The position numbers and the translations under genes are program-made. The notes under the pieces were generated by a model. That model saw only the letters and a program-made list of their open reading frames with translations, was not told the origin of the DNA and did not search any database. Shown in pieces: positions 23,592 to 28,346 of a stretch of DNA of 29,394 nucleotides. The stretch is taken from positions 1-29,394 of the IMG/VR virus record IMGVR_UViG_3300029448_000279, one strand, 5' to 3'. The DNA is from a virus. How positions within the stretch are numbered: position 1 is the first letter of the stretch; every line of letters begins with the position of its first letter.

Positions 23592-23609
23592 GGGAGGGAA
23601 AACCCTCCC
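23592..23609 (-). terminator. GC-rich hairpin after the capsid genes (T-phi-like position)
   Basis: GGGAGGG-TTTT-CCCTCCC as read on the minus strand: a perfect 7-bp all-G/C-and-A/T stem with a 4-nt loop, followed by TACTTTT. It lies between the 91-residue gene and tail tubular A, where T7 has its partial terminator T-phi. The U-run is interrupted, so termination would be leaky. It could instead protect the capsid mRNA 3' end. Confidence 0.6.
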
Positions 23610-23621
23610 CACAGTTTATAG

Positions 23622-23897
23622 TTAGTCTGAGTCAGCTACACTAAGTGCTGTTCCGTCACTCACATCAACAACTCCACTTGAATTTGATAACACTATTACC
23701 AAACTAGCTGTGGGTGTGTTAGAGTCATGAACATAAATTAGATCACCGACTTTTACTTCATCCGATACCGAATTGAAGTAAGCTGCTGTATTCATAGTGG
23801 CTAAGCTATCAGTAGTGGTATAGCTCCACATTTGTGGTGCAGTACCTCGTTTACTCATACCGCCAATAGGATTCCAGCCTGTTCTAGAAAATGCCAT
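23622..23897 (-). CDS. Possible capsid decoration protein, 91 residues
   Basis: Very strong RBS (TAGGAGGTAAATT-ATG) 10 nt after the capsid stop. The protein starts MAFSRTGWNPIGGMSKRG, followed by PQMWSYTTTDSLATMNTAAY and strands KVGDLIYVHDS and ASLVIVLSNSSG. This is a small beta-barrel-like protein that recurs next to the capsid gene in many T7-like and other marine phages. Being expressed with the capsid and bounded by a terminator-like hairpin, it is probably a head decoration or fibre-like capsid protein. No direct evidence of binding. Confidence 0.65.
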   Translation of the reverse strand: MAFSRTGWNPIGGMSKRGTAPQMWSYTTTDSLATMNTAAYFNSVSDEVKVGDLIYVHDSNTPTASLVIVLSNSSGVVDVSDGTALSVADSD

Positions 23898-23907
23898 AAT
23901 TTACCTC

Positions 23908-24762
23908 CTATGACTCTCTACAAGTTACTTTAATAAGACCAGCTGTGTCAATGGCAACTGCGCCAGCACTATACATGGCTGAAACTAAGAAGGATGTCTT
24001 CTCAGGCACATAGTTGACTTCAACTTTTGGTGGGATACCCACACCGCAACCGATGGCTGAACGATGATAGAAGAAAGTATTTCTATCGCTTGAACCATCA
24101 ATAGCTAGTCCGCCTTCATCTCTGTCACCAACAATGTGAAACTGAAAACCCATCATAGTATTCAATTCACCAGCAACTAGAGCTTTAATGTTTTGGAAAT
24201 CTCCAGAGATTGCTCTTTCATCGCCAAGAAGACCTGCGAGATTGTTCGCATGACAAATTGCATGTCGGTCTGTTGGCGGAACATTAGCAGCATCCATAGC
24301 TTTTTTAGCTGCGATGATTTTACCAATGTTCAAATCTGAAGCTGCCGCAGAACCTGAAGTTACTACTGTGTTAGCAATAGTTGCTCCTGGTGAAGCTGCT
24401 TCCATAACATCAATTATTATTTGGTCCTCTCTACGAGCAATGGCTTTACCCACTACTTGTGCAAGTTCCTGTCTTTCGTCAAAATTAACCTTTGCTTGGT
24501 CAAAAATGTCCGAATATTCAGCCGCAATGTAGTTCTCCATAGTGGCTGTTACTGTTGAGAATGAAGTGTTTAAAGGAACAACATCTGTCTGTGGTGTTCT
24601 AATCTGTGCAGTTCCCTTACCAATTTTAGGGAATTTTACAGTTGAACCCTCAACATTTGTACGCATCCTTACACTATCTCTTAATACTGCATCACCTTGA
24701 TAAGCCTGTTTTACTTCAGCCTCAAACAAAGTAATAAATGCAGTTGATAATCCTGTACTCAT
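23908..24762 (-). CDS. Major capsid protein (T7 gp10-like, HK97 fold)
   Basis: A 284-residue protein. N-terminus MSTGLSTAFITLFEAEVKQAY; then VRMRTNVEGSTVKFPKIG, NYIAAEYSDIFDQAKVNFDE and ARREDQIIIDVMEAA, with ATNLAG-like AICHANNLAGLLGDER and a C-terminal YSAGAVAIDTAGLIKVTCRES. Order (portal, scaffold, capsid, gp11, gp12) and these blocks fit T7-type capsid proteins, shorter than T7 gp10A (345). RBS AAGGAG with 5-nt spacing. It has its own promoter and structured leader. No frameshift to a longer form was seen. Confidence 0.88.
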   Translation of the reverse strand: MSTGLSTAFITLFEAEVKQAYQGDAVLRDSVRMRTNVEGSTVKFPKIGKGTAQIRTPQTDVVPLNTSFSTVTATMENYIAAEYSDIFDQAKVNFDERQELAQVVGKAIARREDQIIIDVMEAASPGATIANTVVTSGSAAASDLNIGKIIAAKKAMDAANVPPTDRHAICHANNLAGLLGDERAISGDFQNIKALVAGELNTMMGFQFHIVGDRDEGGLAIDGSSDRNTFFYHRSAIGCGVGIPPKVEVNYVPEKTSFLVSAMYSAGAVAIDTAGLIKVTCRES

Positions 24763-24821
24763 TTGTACTCCTTGTTAAAGTTAATATAAAACTATTCGCC
24801 TATCGGTTATTGAAAAAAATT

Positions 24822-24900
24822 CAGCCTTGGCTACAAGATTCCGCTCTTGCAACGACTCATTTCTGAGCAGCCAAACTCGCCCTGAATAGGGTTGTGAGTT
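24822..24900 (-). promoter_or_regulatory. Structured 5' leader of the major capsid mRNA
   Basis: On the minus strand, in order: hairpin A, AACTC/GAGTT with inner CCCT/AGGG (24900-24874); a three-way junction closed by GGCT (24872-24869) and AGCC (24832-24829), holding CTCA-GAAA-TGAG (24867-24856) with a GNRA tetraloop and CAAGA-6nt-TCTTG (24849-24834); then a second GGCT (24826-24823) and seven U (24819-24813). The last GGCT could compete for AGCC and form a short terminator-like stem. No known RNA family was recognised. Pairing was found by eye. Confidence 0.6.
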
Positions 24901-24909
24901 AATATTATA

Positions 24910-24938
24910 TTTATAACTCTTTTTTAAGAAAAATTCAA
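24910..24938 (-). promoter_or_regulatory. Sigma70-type promoter for the major capsid gene
   Basis: TTGAAT (24938-24933), 17-bp spacer, TATAAA (24915-24910) on the minus strand, with a second TATAAT six bases later. Predicted start about 24903, directly before hairpin A of the leader. It lies in the largest late intergenic gap (183 bp). It suggests use of host RNA polymerase. Confidence 0.7.
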
Positions 24939-24945
24939 ATTTATT

Positions 24946-25755
24946 TTATAGCTTTCCAGCTCTCTCTAATTCTTCCAAATCTCTCTCAACTTGTTTTCTA
25001 AAGGCAACATCATCTCTATAACGAGGATCAGCAACTCTGGATAGAACCTCATCTTTAGCTAAACCACCATCAGAAACATTGACAGTAGGTATTTCTCGCT
25101 CACCCATTAATCCTCTAAATTTATTTAACAATCGTTGACCAGAGGCTGTGCCACCCCATACCTCAAGTTCACTATAATCTTGTTCAGATAAGACACCTTT
25201 AGAAACTAAACCCCTACCCCATTTAATGTTAGAGCTTACAATGTTGTCTGCGTTCTCACCGAGTTTTTCTTTTTCTTCTTTAATATGAATTGTTTCTTGT
25301 TCTTGCTGATCAACACCCATATCACCAATCTTTGTAACAATTTCATCAAAAGCAGTTTGCGAAATGTTATTTTGTTTCGCCCAATCCTTAAATGTATCTA
25401 GTACAGGATCGCCATCATCAAACCCCAATTCTTTTGATTTATCTAGAGAATATTCTTTTGGTGCTTTAAAATCACCATTATGAAATTTTTTCTCTAATTC
25501 ACCATAGGCTTTAGCTAAACCCTCTACATCAGGGCCATCTTTTTCATCCCAAAACTTTTCTGGAAAAGTATCTGGTTTAGTAAACTCAAGGTTTTCTAAA
25601 TCTTCACCATCAAGAACTTCTTCTTGTTTTCCTGTGGACATACCATCATCAGACACTTCTTTAGTATCTTCATGTGGCTGTGCCATTAGTCCTTTATCTT
25701 CTACAGGTTGTTCTACCTGTTGATTTTCTTGTTCAGTATTTTCATTTTCATTCAT
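24946..25755 (-). CDS. Capsid assembly scaffolding protein (T7 gp9-like)
   Basis: A 269-residue, strongly acidic protein, with an extended Glu/Gln/Asn-rich N-terminus (about 1-60). A conserved-looking block follows, TFPEKFWDEKDGPDVEGLAKAY, KAPKEYSL and LDTFKDWAKQNNISQTAFDE. The C-terminus, DPRYRDDVAFRKQVERDLEEL, is a basic/acidic helix typical of scaffold ends that contact the capsid protein. Lies between portal and capsid as in T7. It overlaps the upstream gene by 8 nt. It is expelled or degraded after procapsid assembly in relatives. Confidence 0.87.
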   Translation of the reverse strand: MNENENTEQENQQVEQPVEDKGLMAQPHEDTKEVSDDGMSTGKQEEVLDGEDLENLEFTKPDTFPEKFWDEKDGPDVEGLAKAYGELEKKFHNGDFKAPKEYSLDKSKELGFDDGDPVLDTFKDWAKQNNISQTAFDEIVTKIGDMGVDQQEQETIHIKEEKEKLGENADNIVSSNIKWGRGLVSKGVLSEQDYSELEVWGGTASGQRLLNKFRGLMGEREIPTVNVSDGGLAKDEVLSRVADPRYRDDVAFRKQVERDLEELERAGKL

Positions 25756-26092: not shown

Positions 26093-27643
26093 TTATTCCT
26101 CTTGCGGTGGTGGTTGTTGTGCTTGTTGCTGAGCCATCATCTGAGCTTGTTCTGCCATAACTTGTTGCATCTGCATTCTCTCTTCCATAGTCGTTCTCAA
26201 TGCTGCTGGAATACCCATAGAATCAGCAACAAAATCAGCAAGGGCTTCAAGTTTAATTGTCATCTGACCTGTTGGTCCTAACTGACTAGCTATTTGTGCG
26301 TACTGCATAGCTTGATTTACTTTTGCCATATTAGTTGCCATAGCAATCTCACCTATTGGTTGTATCTTAACTTGTAGACCATTTACTTTCAATGGTAATT
26401 GTATAATACCTAGACTATCCATAACCTCTAATGTTCTTCTAACAACAGGATACATTGTTTCATTTATTAACCGACCATAAGCTGCACCAAGGTTCTGTGA
26501 AAGTTCTTTCATTCTTTGTGATACTTCTAAGGCTGTTCTCGCAGACATATTGTCAGGTGGCAATGACTCATCCAACATAATTTTTTTAATGTTCATTCTT
26601 AAATCATTTGCAACGATTTGTGATAACTGTGGATCACCGCTTCTCGGTAATGGTTGTAAGTCAGCTCCTCTCGGACCACCATTAGAGTTAACAGGAATGA
26701 TTGCACCAGGAACAAGATTTATAGAACCTGGATTTATTACACCAGAATCAACAGCAGTATAGACTCCTGCAATGGTTAATGAAGCATTTTTAAGAGTTAA
26801 TTCTAAAACTCTGTTTAATGTTTTTATATCTGGTAACGCAGTAAGTACAGGTCCTCTACCATATCTTTCGTTAGCTGCTTTCATATAACGAGCTACCACC
26901 CAAGGAAAAGATTTTAATCGTCTATAAACTAATTCATTATTTCCACTATGGTCAATAATTTGATAATGATAATCTCCTGTTTCTTTGTCGTAGTATGTAC
27001 CTTCAATTAATTTTACTGTTTCGTTTTCTCTTCCTTGAAAACTATTTTTCATATCTTGCGGAATATTAATATCAGGAAACTCTTGATCAAGAACACCAAA
27101 AGGCTTTCGCATTTGTCTGTACACTTTGTCTACTGTTCCGAATGGTCCTTCCTCAAAGGTAACTAAGAAGGTCGGTACAGCAGTATATCGTATGGGTGTT
27201 ATTTCATCTCCTGGCTGGATAAGCATAATCGCACTACCTATTGCAAGCTCTAATAAAAATTCTCCCATAGCCTGATCAAAATTAGATTGTCGCATAACAT
27301 CAAACATTTTGTTTTGATAACTGTCTAATACTTGTTGTGTTTCTATTTGTCTTTCTTCTGGTATTTCAGAACCAGGAACTAAACGACACCATTGCGTTGC
27401 CGGAGGAAACAATCCTGATTGCATTTTATTAGCAAATTTTTGTGTAGAGTCTATGGCTGTTGAATCAAATACCCTTGCCATTTTATCTTGTCCTGGAGTA
27501 TCGGATTCATAATATCCATCATAAAGATTTCTCATTGGTAAGGCATAGCGGTAGGCATCTTCGTAAATAGATCGCCAATTATCTTTATGACTATTTGTTT
27601 GTTCGTATTTTTTTTTTAATTGTTGTGGTCTAAGTTTTGCCAT
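26093..27643 (-). CDS. Portal / head-to-tail connector protein (T7 gp8-like)
   Basis: A 516-residue protein. The N-terminus KKKYEQTNSHKDNWRSIYED, YALPMRNL and FDSTAIDSTQKFANKMQSGL, then LFPPATQWCRLVPG, is diagnostic for the T7-type head-tail connector family. MSARTALEVSQRMKELSQNLG and the GRLINETMYPVVRRTLEVMD helix form the wing/stem part. A Gln/Met/Ala-rich C-terminal tail ends QQPPPQEE. Length is close to T7 gp8 (536). It forms the dodecameric vertex through which DNA is packaged and ejected. Coupled upstream by TAATG. Confidence 0.92.
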   Translation of the reverse strand: MAKLRPQQLKKKYEQTNSHKDNWRSIYEDAYRYALPMRNLYDGYYESDTPGQDKMARVFDSTAIDSTQKFANKMQSGLFPPATQWCRLVPGSEIPEERQIETQQVLDSYQNKMFDVMRQSNFDQAMGEFLLELAIGSAIMLIQPGDEITPIRYTAVPTFLVTFEEGPFGTVDKVYRQMRKPFGVLDQEFPDINIPQDMKNSFQGRENETVKLIEGTYYDKETGDYHYQIIDHSGNNELVYRRLKSFPWVVARYMKAANERYGRGPVLTALPDIKTLNRVLELTLKNASLTIAGVYTAVDSGVINPGSINLVPGAIIPVNSNGGPRGADLQPLPRSGDPQLSQIVANDLRMNIKKIMLDESLPPDNMSARTALEVSQRMKELSQNLGAAYGRLINETMYPVVRRTLEVMDSLGIIQLPLKVNGLQVKIQPIGEIAMATNMAKVNQAMQYAQIASQLGPTGQMTIKLEALADFVADSMGIPAALRTTMEERMQMQQVMAEQAQMMAQQQAQQPPPQEE

Positions 27644-28136: not shown

Positions 28137-28303
28137 TATGCTTTACCTTTTTTAGCAAATTTCATTTTAGATTCGTTCACAGACATTTTCATTTTACCGC
28201 CTGTCATTTTAGCAAAGGCTTTAGCCTGTTCTAATCCTGATTTATTATAACTAAATGATTTAGTTTTCATGCCATCTTTAGTTTTGTACATTACTTGGGG
28301 CAT
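28136..28303 (-). CDS. 55-residue Lys/Met-rich protein
   Basis: ATG at 28303, TAA at 28136-28138. RBS AAGGAGAG at 6 nt. The protein begins MPQVMYKTKDGMKTKSFSYN, followed by a helix (GLEQAKAFAKMTGGKMKM) and a basic end (KFAKKGKA). The TAATG overlap with the next gene and the good RBS support it. Eight Met in 55 residues is unusual. Function unknown; part of the run of small basic proteins before the portal. Confidence 0.65.
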   Translation of the reverse strand: MPQVMYKTKDGMKTKSFSYNKSGLEQAKAFAKMTGGKMKMSVNESKMKFAKKGKA

Positions 28304-28346
28304 CTTCTTCTCTCCTTTTTTTTGGATTTCTAATATATTTTTTCAT
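28278..28346 (-). CDS. Possible 22-residue basic mini-protein
   Basis: ATG at 28346 shares one base with the stop of the 81-residue gene (TAATG) and the frame encodes MKKYIRNPKKRREED..., ending after 22 residues inside the next gene. It has no Shine-Dalgarno of its own, so it would depend on re-initiation. It resembles the other Lys/Arg-rich mini-genes in style. Could be chance. Confidence 0.3.
   Translation of the reverse strand: MKKYIRNPKKRREEDAPSNVQN

Follow-up and report, generated by a model that had tools for sequence, protein, structure and literature searches.

The window analysed here is the whole of a 29,394-base IMG/VR virus record (at 29.4 kb the record may be incomplete), whose late genes, for a head-tail adaptor, scaffold, capsid, 91-aa protein, tail and internal virion protein, are all transcribed from the minus strand. 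Resolvase and YqaJ domains at its left end match the gene set of the Methylophilales phage MEP301, for which no RNA polymerase gene is reported (PMC8024684). A sequence-only reading of the region had described a promoter and RNA folds, and we recover both on the minus strand between the scaffold and capsid genes, where the leader lies in a gap of 183 nt. That this is the longest gap of the operon, as the same reading held, is doubtful, because positions 28137-28345 likewise lack a listed minus-strand open reading frame. Reading the coordinates on the plus strand was rejected, as no structure appears there (z 0.17). The features of the locus are the following:

26093-27643, minus: portal-like head-tail adaptor gene
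24946-25755, minus: scaffold gene
24910-24938, minus: sigma70-type promoter, from sequence (TTGAAT 24938-24933, 17-nt spacer, TATAAA 24915-24910)
24909-24904, minus: overlapping second -10 candidate TATAAT, from sequence
24763-24795, minus: A/U-rich spacer with the Shine-Dalgarno AAGGAG before the capsid ATG (24762), from sequence
23908-24762, minus: major capsid gene, 284 aa (PHROG 3437, E 7.8e-49)
23622-23897, minus: 91-aa gene, second in the capsid cassette (PHROG 18004)
23595-23610, minus: terminator-like hairpin after the 91-aa gene, the positional equivalent of the relatives' downstream terminators

The conserved element was indeed found where the sequence-only reading had placed it; it continues, however, 26 nt beyond the end given there, to 24796 (24900-24796). 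The two-part hairpin of that reading corresponds to P1 and H1 below, and we also find the three-way junction, one arm of which is capped by GAAA, and the second GGCU ahead of the U7 run. The predicted parts of the leader are:

24874-24900, minus: M1 (P1, internal loop and H1)
24900-24896/24878-24874, minus: helix P1 of M1, AACUC/GAGUU
24895-24892, minus: M1 internal loop ACAA, opposite C 24879
24891-24889/24882-24880, minus: helix H1 of M1, CCC/GGG
24828-24873, minus: three-way junction (P2 and arms A and B)
24873-24870/24831-24828, minus: P2, UGGC/GCCA, partly supported (72% of cells paired)
24868-24864/24859-24855, minus: arm A with GAAA loop, both-sided changes at every pair (34-sequence alignment)
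24851-24845/24838-24832, minus: arm B with loop GCGGAA, both-sided changes at every pair (34-sequence alignment)
24805-24826, minus: M2, a circularly permuted copy of M1, from alignments and descriptor
24826-24825/24806-24805, minus: Q of M2, GG/CC, with C 24824 opposite AUAA 24810-24807
24823-24820/24814-24811, minus: hairpin P3 of M2, UGAA/UUCA, the U7 run forming its loop and 3' arm
24796-24804, minus: conserved tail GAUA-GGCGA (N-GCG[A] in relatives), apparently single-stranded, from alignments

The core of the element is a single 4x1 internal loop (AYAA or CAUA-like, opposite C) that is present twice. M1 has the order P1a-AYAA-H1-C-P1b and M2 the order Q-C-P3 hairpin-AYAA-Q', so that M2 is the M1 loop entered from the other side. 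Among relatives Q appears as CAG/CUG, AGG/CCU, GGG/CCC, UGG/CCA and other pairs, and MEP301-type leaders replace AYAA by CAUA, CUUA or CCUA; we note that, in sequence terms, the CAUA-type loops may resemble the C-loop of the literature. The junction arms are missing from some relatives (L036, L041 and L134).

Folding of the window leader as a single sequence is modestly unusual (z -1.5 to -1.8). Rfam 15 returned no match at the gathering threshold for the window and 20 relatives (99,715 bases), and matches below the threshold look like chance, in agreement with the earlier statement that no known riboswitch or ribozyme is recognisable. The judgement on the structure therefore rests on relatives, for which about 320 IMG/VR loci were gathered through capsid searches, with isolates and genome contigs added. 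Their leaders are strongly alike in pattern and not in sequence. In 92 distinct leaders, which were picked solely by a regular expression for A[CT]AAC motifs and thus blind to pairing, P1 (the five nucleotides before the first motif against the five after H1) is paired in 99.3% of 447 cells, compared to 15-52% when its partner is slid by 1-3 columns, and H1 is paired in 97.3%. P1 reads AACUC/GAGUU in the window and GACUG/CGGUC, GAGCG/CGCUC, AACAG/CUGUU, GUACU/AGUAC, GAACG/CGUUC or GAUCG/CGAUC in relatives, and its changes on an independent capsid-protein tree are two-sided in 22 cases and one-sided in 12.

The remaining helices follow the same pattern. With all seven helices counted, 90.3% of cells are paired in the 34-sequence alignment, which has a covariation score of 0.543, against 0.205 for shuffled and at most 0.133 for slid versions, and both-sided changes occur at every pair of P1 (5/5), arm A, arm B and P3. 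The weakest helix is P2, with 72% of its cells paired and a single pair that changes on both sides. Part of this weakness comes from the window-type rows, which stand one column out of register in this stretch; when the consensus of the alignment (A1) is imposed on every sequence, these rows are off by one column 3' of arm B, and their energy gaps are inflated accordingly. A tree-null, R-scape-like test on 84 group-1 sequences, which is underpowered, gave two pairs at E<=0.05, one in P1 and the other not structural. Covariation in relatives, the check proposed together with the first description of the folds, is clearly present, and we regard the existence and the predicted architecture of a true structured RNA as well shown by these alignments.

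The minimum free energy fold of the window (-27.6 kcal/mol) is in a different register and lies 3.6-4.8 kcal/mol below the phylogenetically supported fold (-22.8 to -24.0 kcal/mol). It pairs the second GGCU, after which the U7 run comes, with GAGUUUGGCU. Nearest-neighbour energies ignore tertiary contacts and proteins, so that this difference does not decide the fold. In relatives P3 has a GC arm in place of the U run, as in CGGGG-ACU-CCCCG; neither is the U run conserved among them nor is the alternative pairing kept in all of them, and a GC-rich hairpin directly before a conserved U tract, as expected of an intrinsic-terminator attenuator, was not found. The terminator/antiterminator switch that had been proposed thus fails as a shared mechanism, because the U run forms the loop and 3' arm of hairpin P3 and not a terminator tail.

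The TTGAAT-17-TATAAA promoter is present as it had been described. Taken alone it is not above chance, with 37 such sites in the window against 53 expected in shuffles, and it fails the T-at-position-6 rule of the promoter tool. Its position relative to P1 is more informative: when -10/-35 pairs were scored upstream of P1 in 86 leaders, the gap between -10 and P1 was 5-7 nt in 51, where about 10% would be expected under a uniform spread. Because the promoter ends about 6 nt before P1, the RNA is predicted to start at the base of P1, and a transcription start there from a sigma70-like promoter is strongly suggested by this spacing. The gap in the window is 9 nt (from TATAAA) or 3 nt (from TATAAT), and with the 9-nt gap 2-3 unpaired 5' nucleotides may remain.

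The promoter region carries further features in subsets of relatives. A dyad, TTTACAAG-CTACAG-CTTGTA, lies between the -35 and -10 of the capsid promoter in L051, L055, L067, L106 and similar leaders, 100-145 nt upstream of the capsid ATG and with covarying arms (e.g., ACAACC..GGTTGT), and looks like an operator. In the MEP301-type leaders L089, L168, L189 and L204 an inverted repeat, GCCTTA...TAAGGC, spans the -10 region, and P1a has two possible partners, P1b and the promoter spacer. An HNH-endonuclease-like reading frame remnant (..HKDGNPKNNNSSNLKIVSRSYNRAKK*) is inserted between the scaffold gene and the leader, just 5' of the promoter, in L002, L004, L005 and L036, in which the leader is intact.

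Intrinsic terminators are predicted 150-250 nt upstream of the capsid AUG in 32 of 96 loci and 300-399 nt after the capsid stop in 51 of 92 relatives; no other 50-nt bin of the downstream stretch contains more than two. Judged by these predicted sites, promoter, leader, capsid gene and small gene are a terminator-bounded cassette comparable to phi10/gene 10/Tphi of T7, with a promoter before and a terminator shortly after the capsid gene. The parallel to T7 phi10 that had been drawn from the window fits well, because predicted terminators flank the cassette and no RNA polymerase gene was found in the relative MEP301. Towards the ribosome-binding site, M2 and the AUG are 45-53 nt apart in 70 of 80 non-redundant leaders. 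The structure consequently closes about 36 nt upstream of the AUG, and open A/U-rich sequence surrounds the Shine-Dalgarno.

The twin motif is closely tied to capsid leaders. A descriptor that needs both M1 and M2 matches 68 of 102 non-redundant leaders (67%) and 0.34% of dinucleotide shuffles (64% and 0.05%, respectively, at scores of at least 35). Over 1.5 Mb of loci, both strands included, it has 227 matches in capsid leaders and two elsewhere, and the window carries one match. The covariance model R1 finds the element in 33 of 86 sources, always in the capsid leader; it misses the elements of the MEP301 type, of CKB-S2, of Baldr and of L435, which are recognised by the descriptor only. A pattern scan of all IMG/VR yielded 110 stretches, and among those checked the full elements precede a capsid gene or lie at contig ends; none stands before another gene, and the other matches without a capsid gene are chance matches in which the element is absent. 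Beyond IMG/VR, the element is found in Vibrio phage CKB-S2, in Pelagibacter phage Baldr, which has two M2-type copies, and in contig L435 of an alphaproteobacterial MAG, and by eye only in an Opitutae MAG, the Pelagibius litoralis chromosome and a Paraglaciecola MAG. In the Vibrio phages 1.138.O, 456E52 and ZCVPP1 and in virus SI2 it is absent or was not recognised. INPHARED DNA similarity searches gave nothing useful with the window and L058 leaders, and with the MEP301-type leader only itself and chance matches.

Several single cases deserve mention. Pelagibius litoralis DSM 21314 (L436, NZ_JAAQPH010000002) has a 45%-identical capsid gene within a 425-kb bacterial contig, and its capsid leader has a larger-loop version of the twin motif. 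HTVC010P-type pelagiphages (L092, L439, L445-L450) strongly keep an M1-like hairpin, GUAAG ACAA UUC..GAA C CUUAC, which lies inside the gene upstream of the capsid gene and without M2, and hence was not counted as an element. The capsid leader of Alteromonas phage ZP6 (L454) contains the near-duplicate stretches GGTAGCCATAGGGTC and GGTAGCCACTAGGTC, perhaps another twin element.

Searches of open-access papers found no description of this leader, and for the pelagiphage Skadi sigma70 promoters near replication genes, and no terminators or riboswitches, were reported (PMC10504331). By the alignments and the database comparisons, this RNA represents a new structured-leader family before podovirus capsid genes, with an unusual predicted architecture in which one motif recurs circularly permuted within a single molecule.

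As to its role, the earlier interpretation as a cis-acting RNA holds in so far as there is a structured, covarying RNA at the predicted start of the capsid transcript, and does not hold for the terminator/antiterminator switch. Stabilisation of the mRNA is our leading idea. We infer that host RNA polymerase would begin the capsid mRNA at the base of P1 or no more than about 3 nt from it, so that the 5' end of the RNA would be captured in a helix on emergence. M1 and M2 would then give the leader a compact fold, in which the two may dock, and the leader would stop about 36 nt before the capsid AUG, leaving the A/U-rich ribosome-binding site open. RppH and RNase E need or prefer single-stranded 5' ends, and 5'-terminal structure stabilises mRNA (PMC3997798); the leader may thus shield a short, terminator-bounded capsid mRNA from 5'-end decay. 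Protection and an open ribosome site together could give a high capsid dose, as T7 obtains from phi10/gene 10/Tphi. This complete model, in which a leader starting with P1 caps and protects a dedicated capsid mRNA, keeps its ribosome site open and raises the capsid dose, is held tentatively, at somewhat less than even confidence. The 9-nt promoter gap of the window and the lower energy of its alternative register count against this model. A plain stabiliser, too, would need neither two conserved copies of a specific internal loop nor a conserved GCGA tail, which suggests that these reflect specific recognition by a protein, the ribosome or the polymerase.

Such recognition might serve translational control, with both motifs bound by a host protein or by one of the phage's own (the scaffold, the capsid or the 91-aa protein), which would control the ribosome site from there. 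We consider this rather unlikely, even though the two conserved asymmetric internal loops resemble a paired protein-binding site, the element is found only before capsid genes of one family, its distance to the AUG is narrow, and T4 gene 32 provides a precedent in which gp32 acts from a pseudoknot in the leader, some 67 nt ahead of the gene's AUG (PMC3014915). The open A/U-rich setting of the Shine-Dalgarno speaks against it, and feedback repression of the most abundant virion protein would be unusual. Complementarity of at least 6 bp between P3 and the Shine-Dalgarno occurs in about 17 of 80 leaders, with more pairs in own than in permuted combinations (11.18 against 10.36, sd 0.22), a permutation that ignores relatedness; it is missing in the window and in most relatives. 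In L057, L105, L121, L097 and L152 the Shine-Dalgarno has its complement in the P3 loop and 3' arm, and the two appear to covary (e.g., AUACUCC/GGAGUAU and UUACUCC/GGAGUAA). A switch that sequesters the Shine-Dalgarno seems unlikely as a general reading, as the complementarity is confined to a subset and does not extend to the window.

Recognition by the polymerase could alternatively amount to factor-independent antitermination, in which host RNA polymerase, bound by the leader as it is being made, would pass the terminator that follows the 91-aa gene and go on to transcribe the tail genes. HK022 put suppresses termination by binding the beta' zinc-binding domain of RNA polymerase, and putL likewise lies at the transcript start, is of similar size and consists of stem-loops with internal bulges (PMC9378689). 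The phages considered here appear to have no polymerase of their own, and terminators do occur downstream. Yet a terminator right after two genes suggests a cassette meant to end there, and the leader is a single copy at an internal promoter before the capsid gene, not at the head of long operons. Across the whole HK022 genome the best R1 match (12.3 bits, E 1.1) falls within tail genes and is not credible. We regard this mode of action as improbable, and membership in HK022 put itself was rejected, since neither sequence nor the R1 model matches in that genome.

A metabolite riboswitch or self-cleaving ribozyme controlling capsid expression would accord with the compact junction, the conserved internal loops, the GNRA-capped arm and the bistable folding of the window. 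It appears very unlikely given the empty Rfam scan of the window and 20 relatives, the lack of a conserved terminator, SD-sequestering switch or metabolic gene, the loss of arms A and B in L036 and L134, and the failure to recognise a conserved cleavage core. Similarly, the active species might be a non-coding RNA or a processing product of the leader, such as a packaging or scaffold RNA. The 5' and 3' boundaries are conserved and the three-way junction recalls the phi29 pRNA in outline; no conserved terminator or processing site lies between M2 and the AUG, however, the leader is directly linked to the capsid gene and its arms are dispensable, and we give this option very little credence. An attenuator in which GAGUUUGGCU pairs with AGGCUGAAUU before U7 as terminator, and the conserved fold acts as antiterminator, has in its favour that the alternative register is the window's minimum (-27.6 kcal/mol) with U7 after it, and is scarcely credible because P3 with a GC arm takes the place of the U run in relatives, the alternative helix is not common to L064 or L069 types, and covariation backs P1, Q and P3.

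Whatever its role, the RNA family seems widespread in marine and freshwater viromes and is absent from Rfam, and it bears on how the abundant marine podoviruses that lack an RNA polymerase gene obtain sufficient capsid protein from host promoters. The leader and its bracketing terminators offer a concrete, testable answer on capsid supply, and isolates with the element (Methylophilales phage MEP301 and Vibrio phage CKB-S2) open it to experiment. The twin motif may, with about as much reserve as the model above or slightly more, be a new RNA recognition module, acting either on its own as a modifier of host polymerase or ribosome, or as an operator with two sites for a phage protein, by which podoviruses of different bacteria set their capsid dose without a phage polymerase.

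Several known systems are close to the leader. Like the T4 gene 32 leader, it is an mRNA structure tens of nucleotides before the AUG followed by an A/U-rich ribosome site; unlike the latter, it precedes a capsid gene and not that of a single-stranded DNA-binding protein, and no pseudoknot was recognised. With HK022 put it shares a structured RNA at what is here the predicted transcript start, paired bulged stem-loops and, apparently, the use of host RNA polymerase only, whereas it differs in its one copy before the capsid gene (put being located in early operons), in its loop and helix layout and in the terminator kept after the cassette. Stem-loops of the ompA/papA type have a helix at the very 5' end and then an open ribosome-binding site, and a helix near the start is predicted here from the promoter spacing (5-7 nt in 51 of 86 leaders; 9 or 3 nt in the window); the present leader is far more elaborate, sequence-specific in its two AYAA/C loops and GCGA tail, and conserved across distant phages. 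The organisation of T7 phi10, gene 10 and Tphi is paralleled in that the major capsid gene is immediately preceded by a predicted promoter and a structured leader and soon followed by a predicted terminator; the differences are that the promoters here are of the host sigma70 type, where T7 uses a phage polymerase, and that the leader RNA is conserved, covaries and carries a twin motif.
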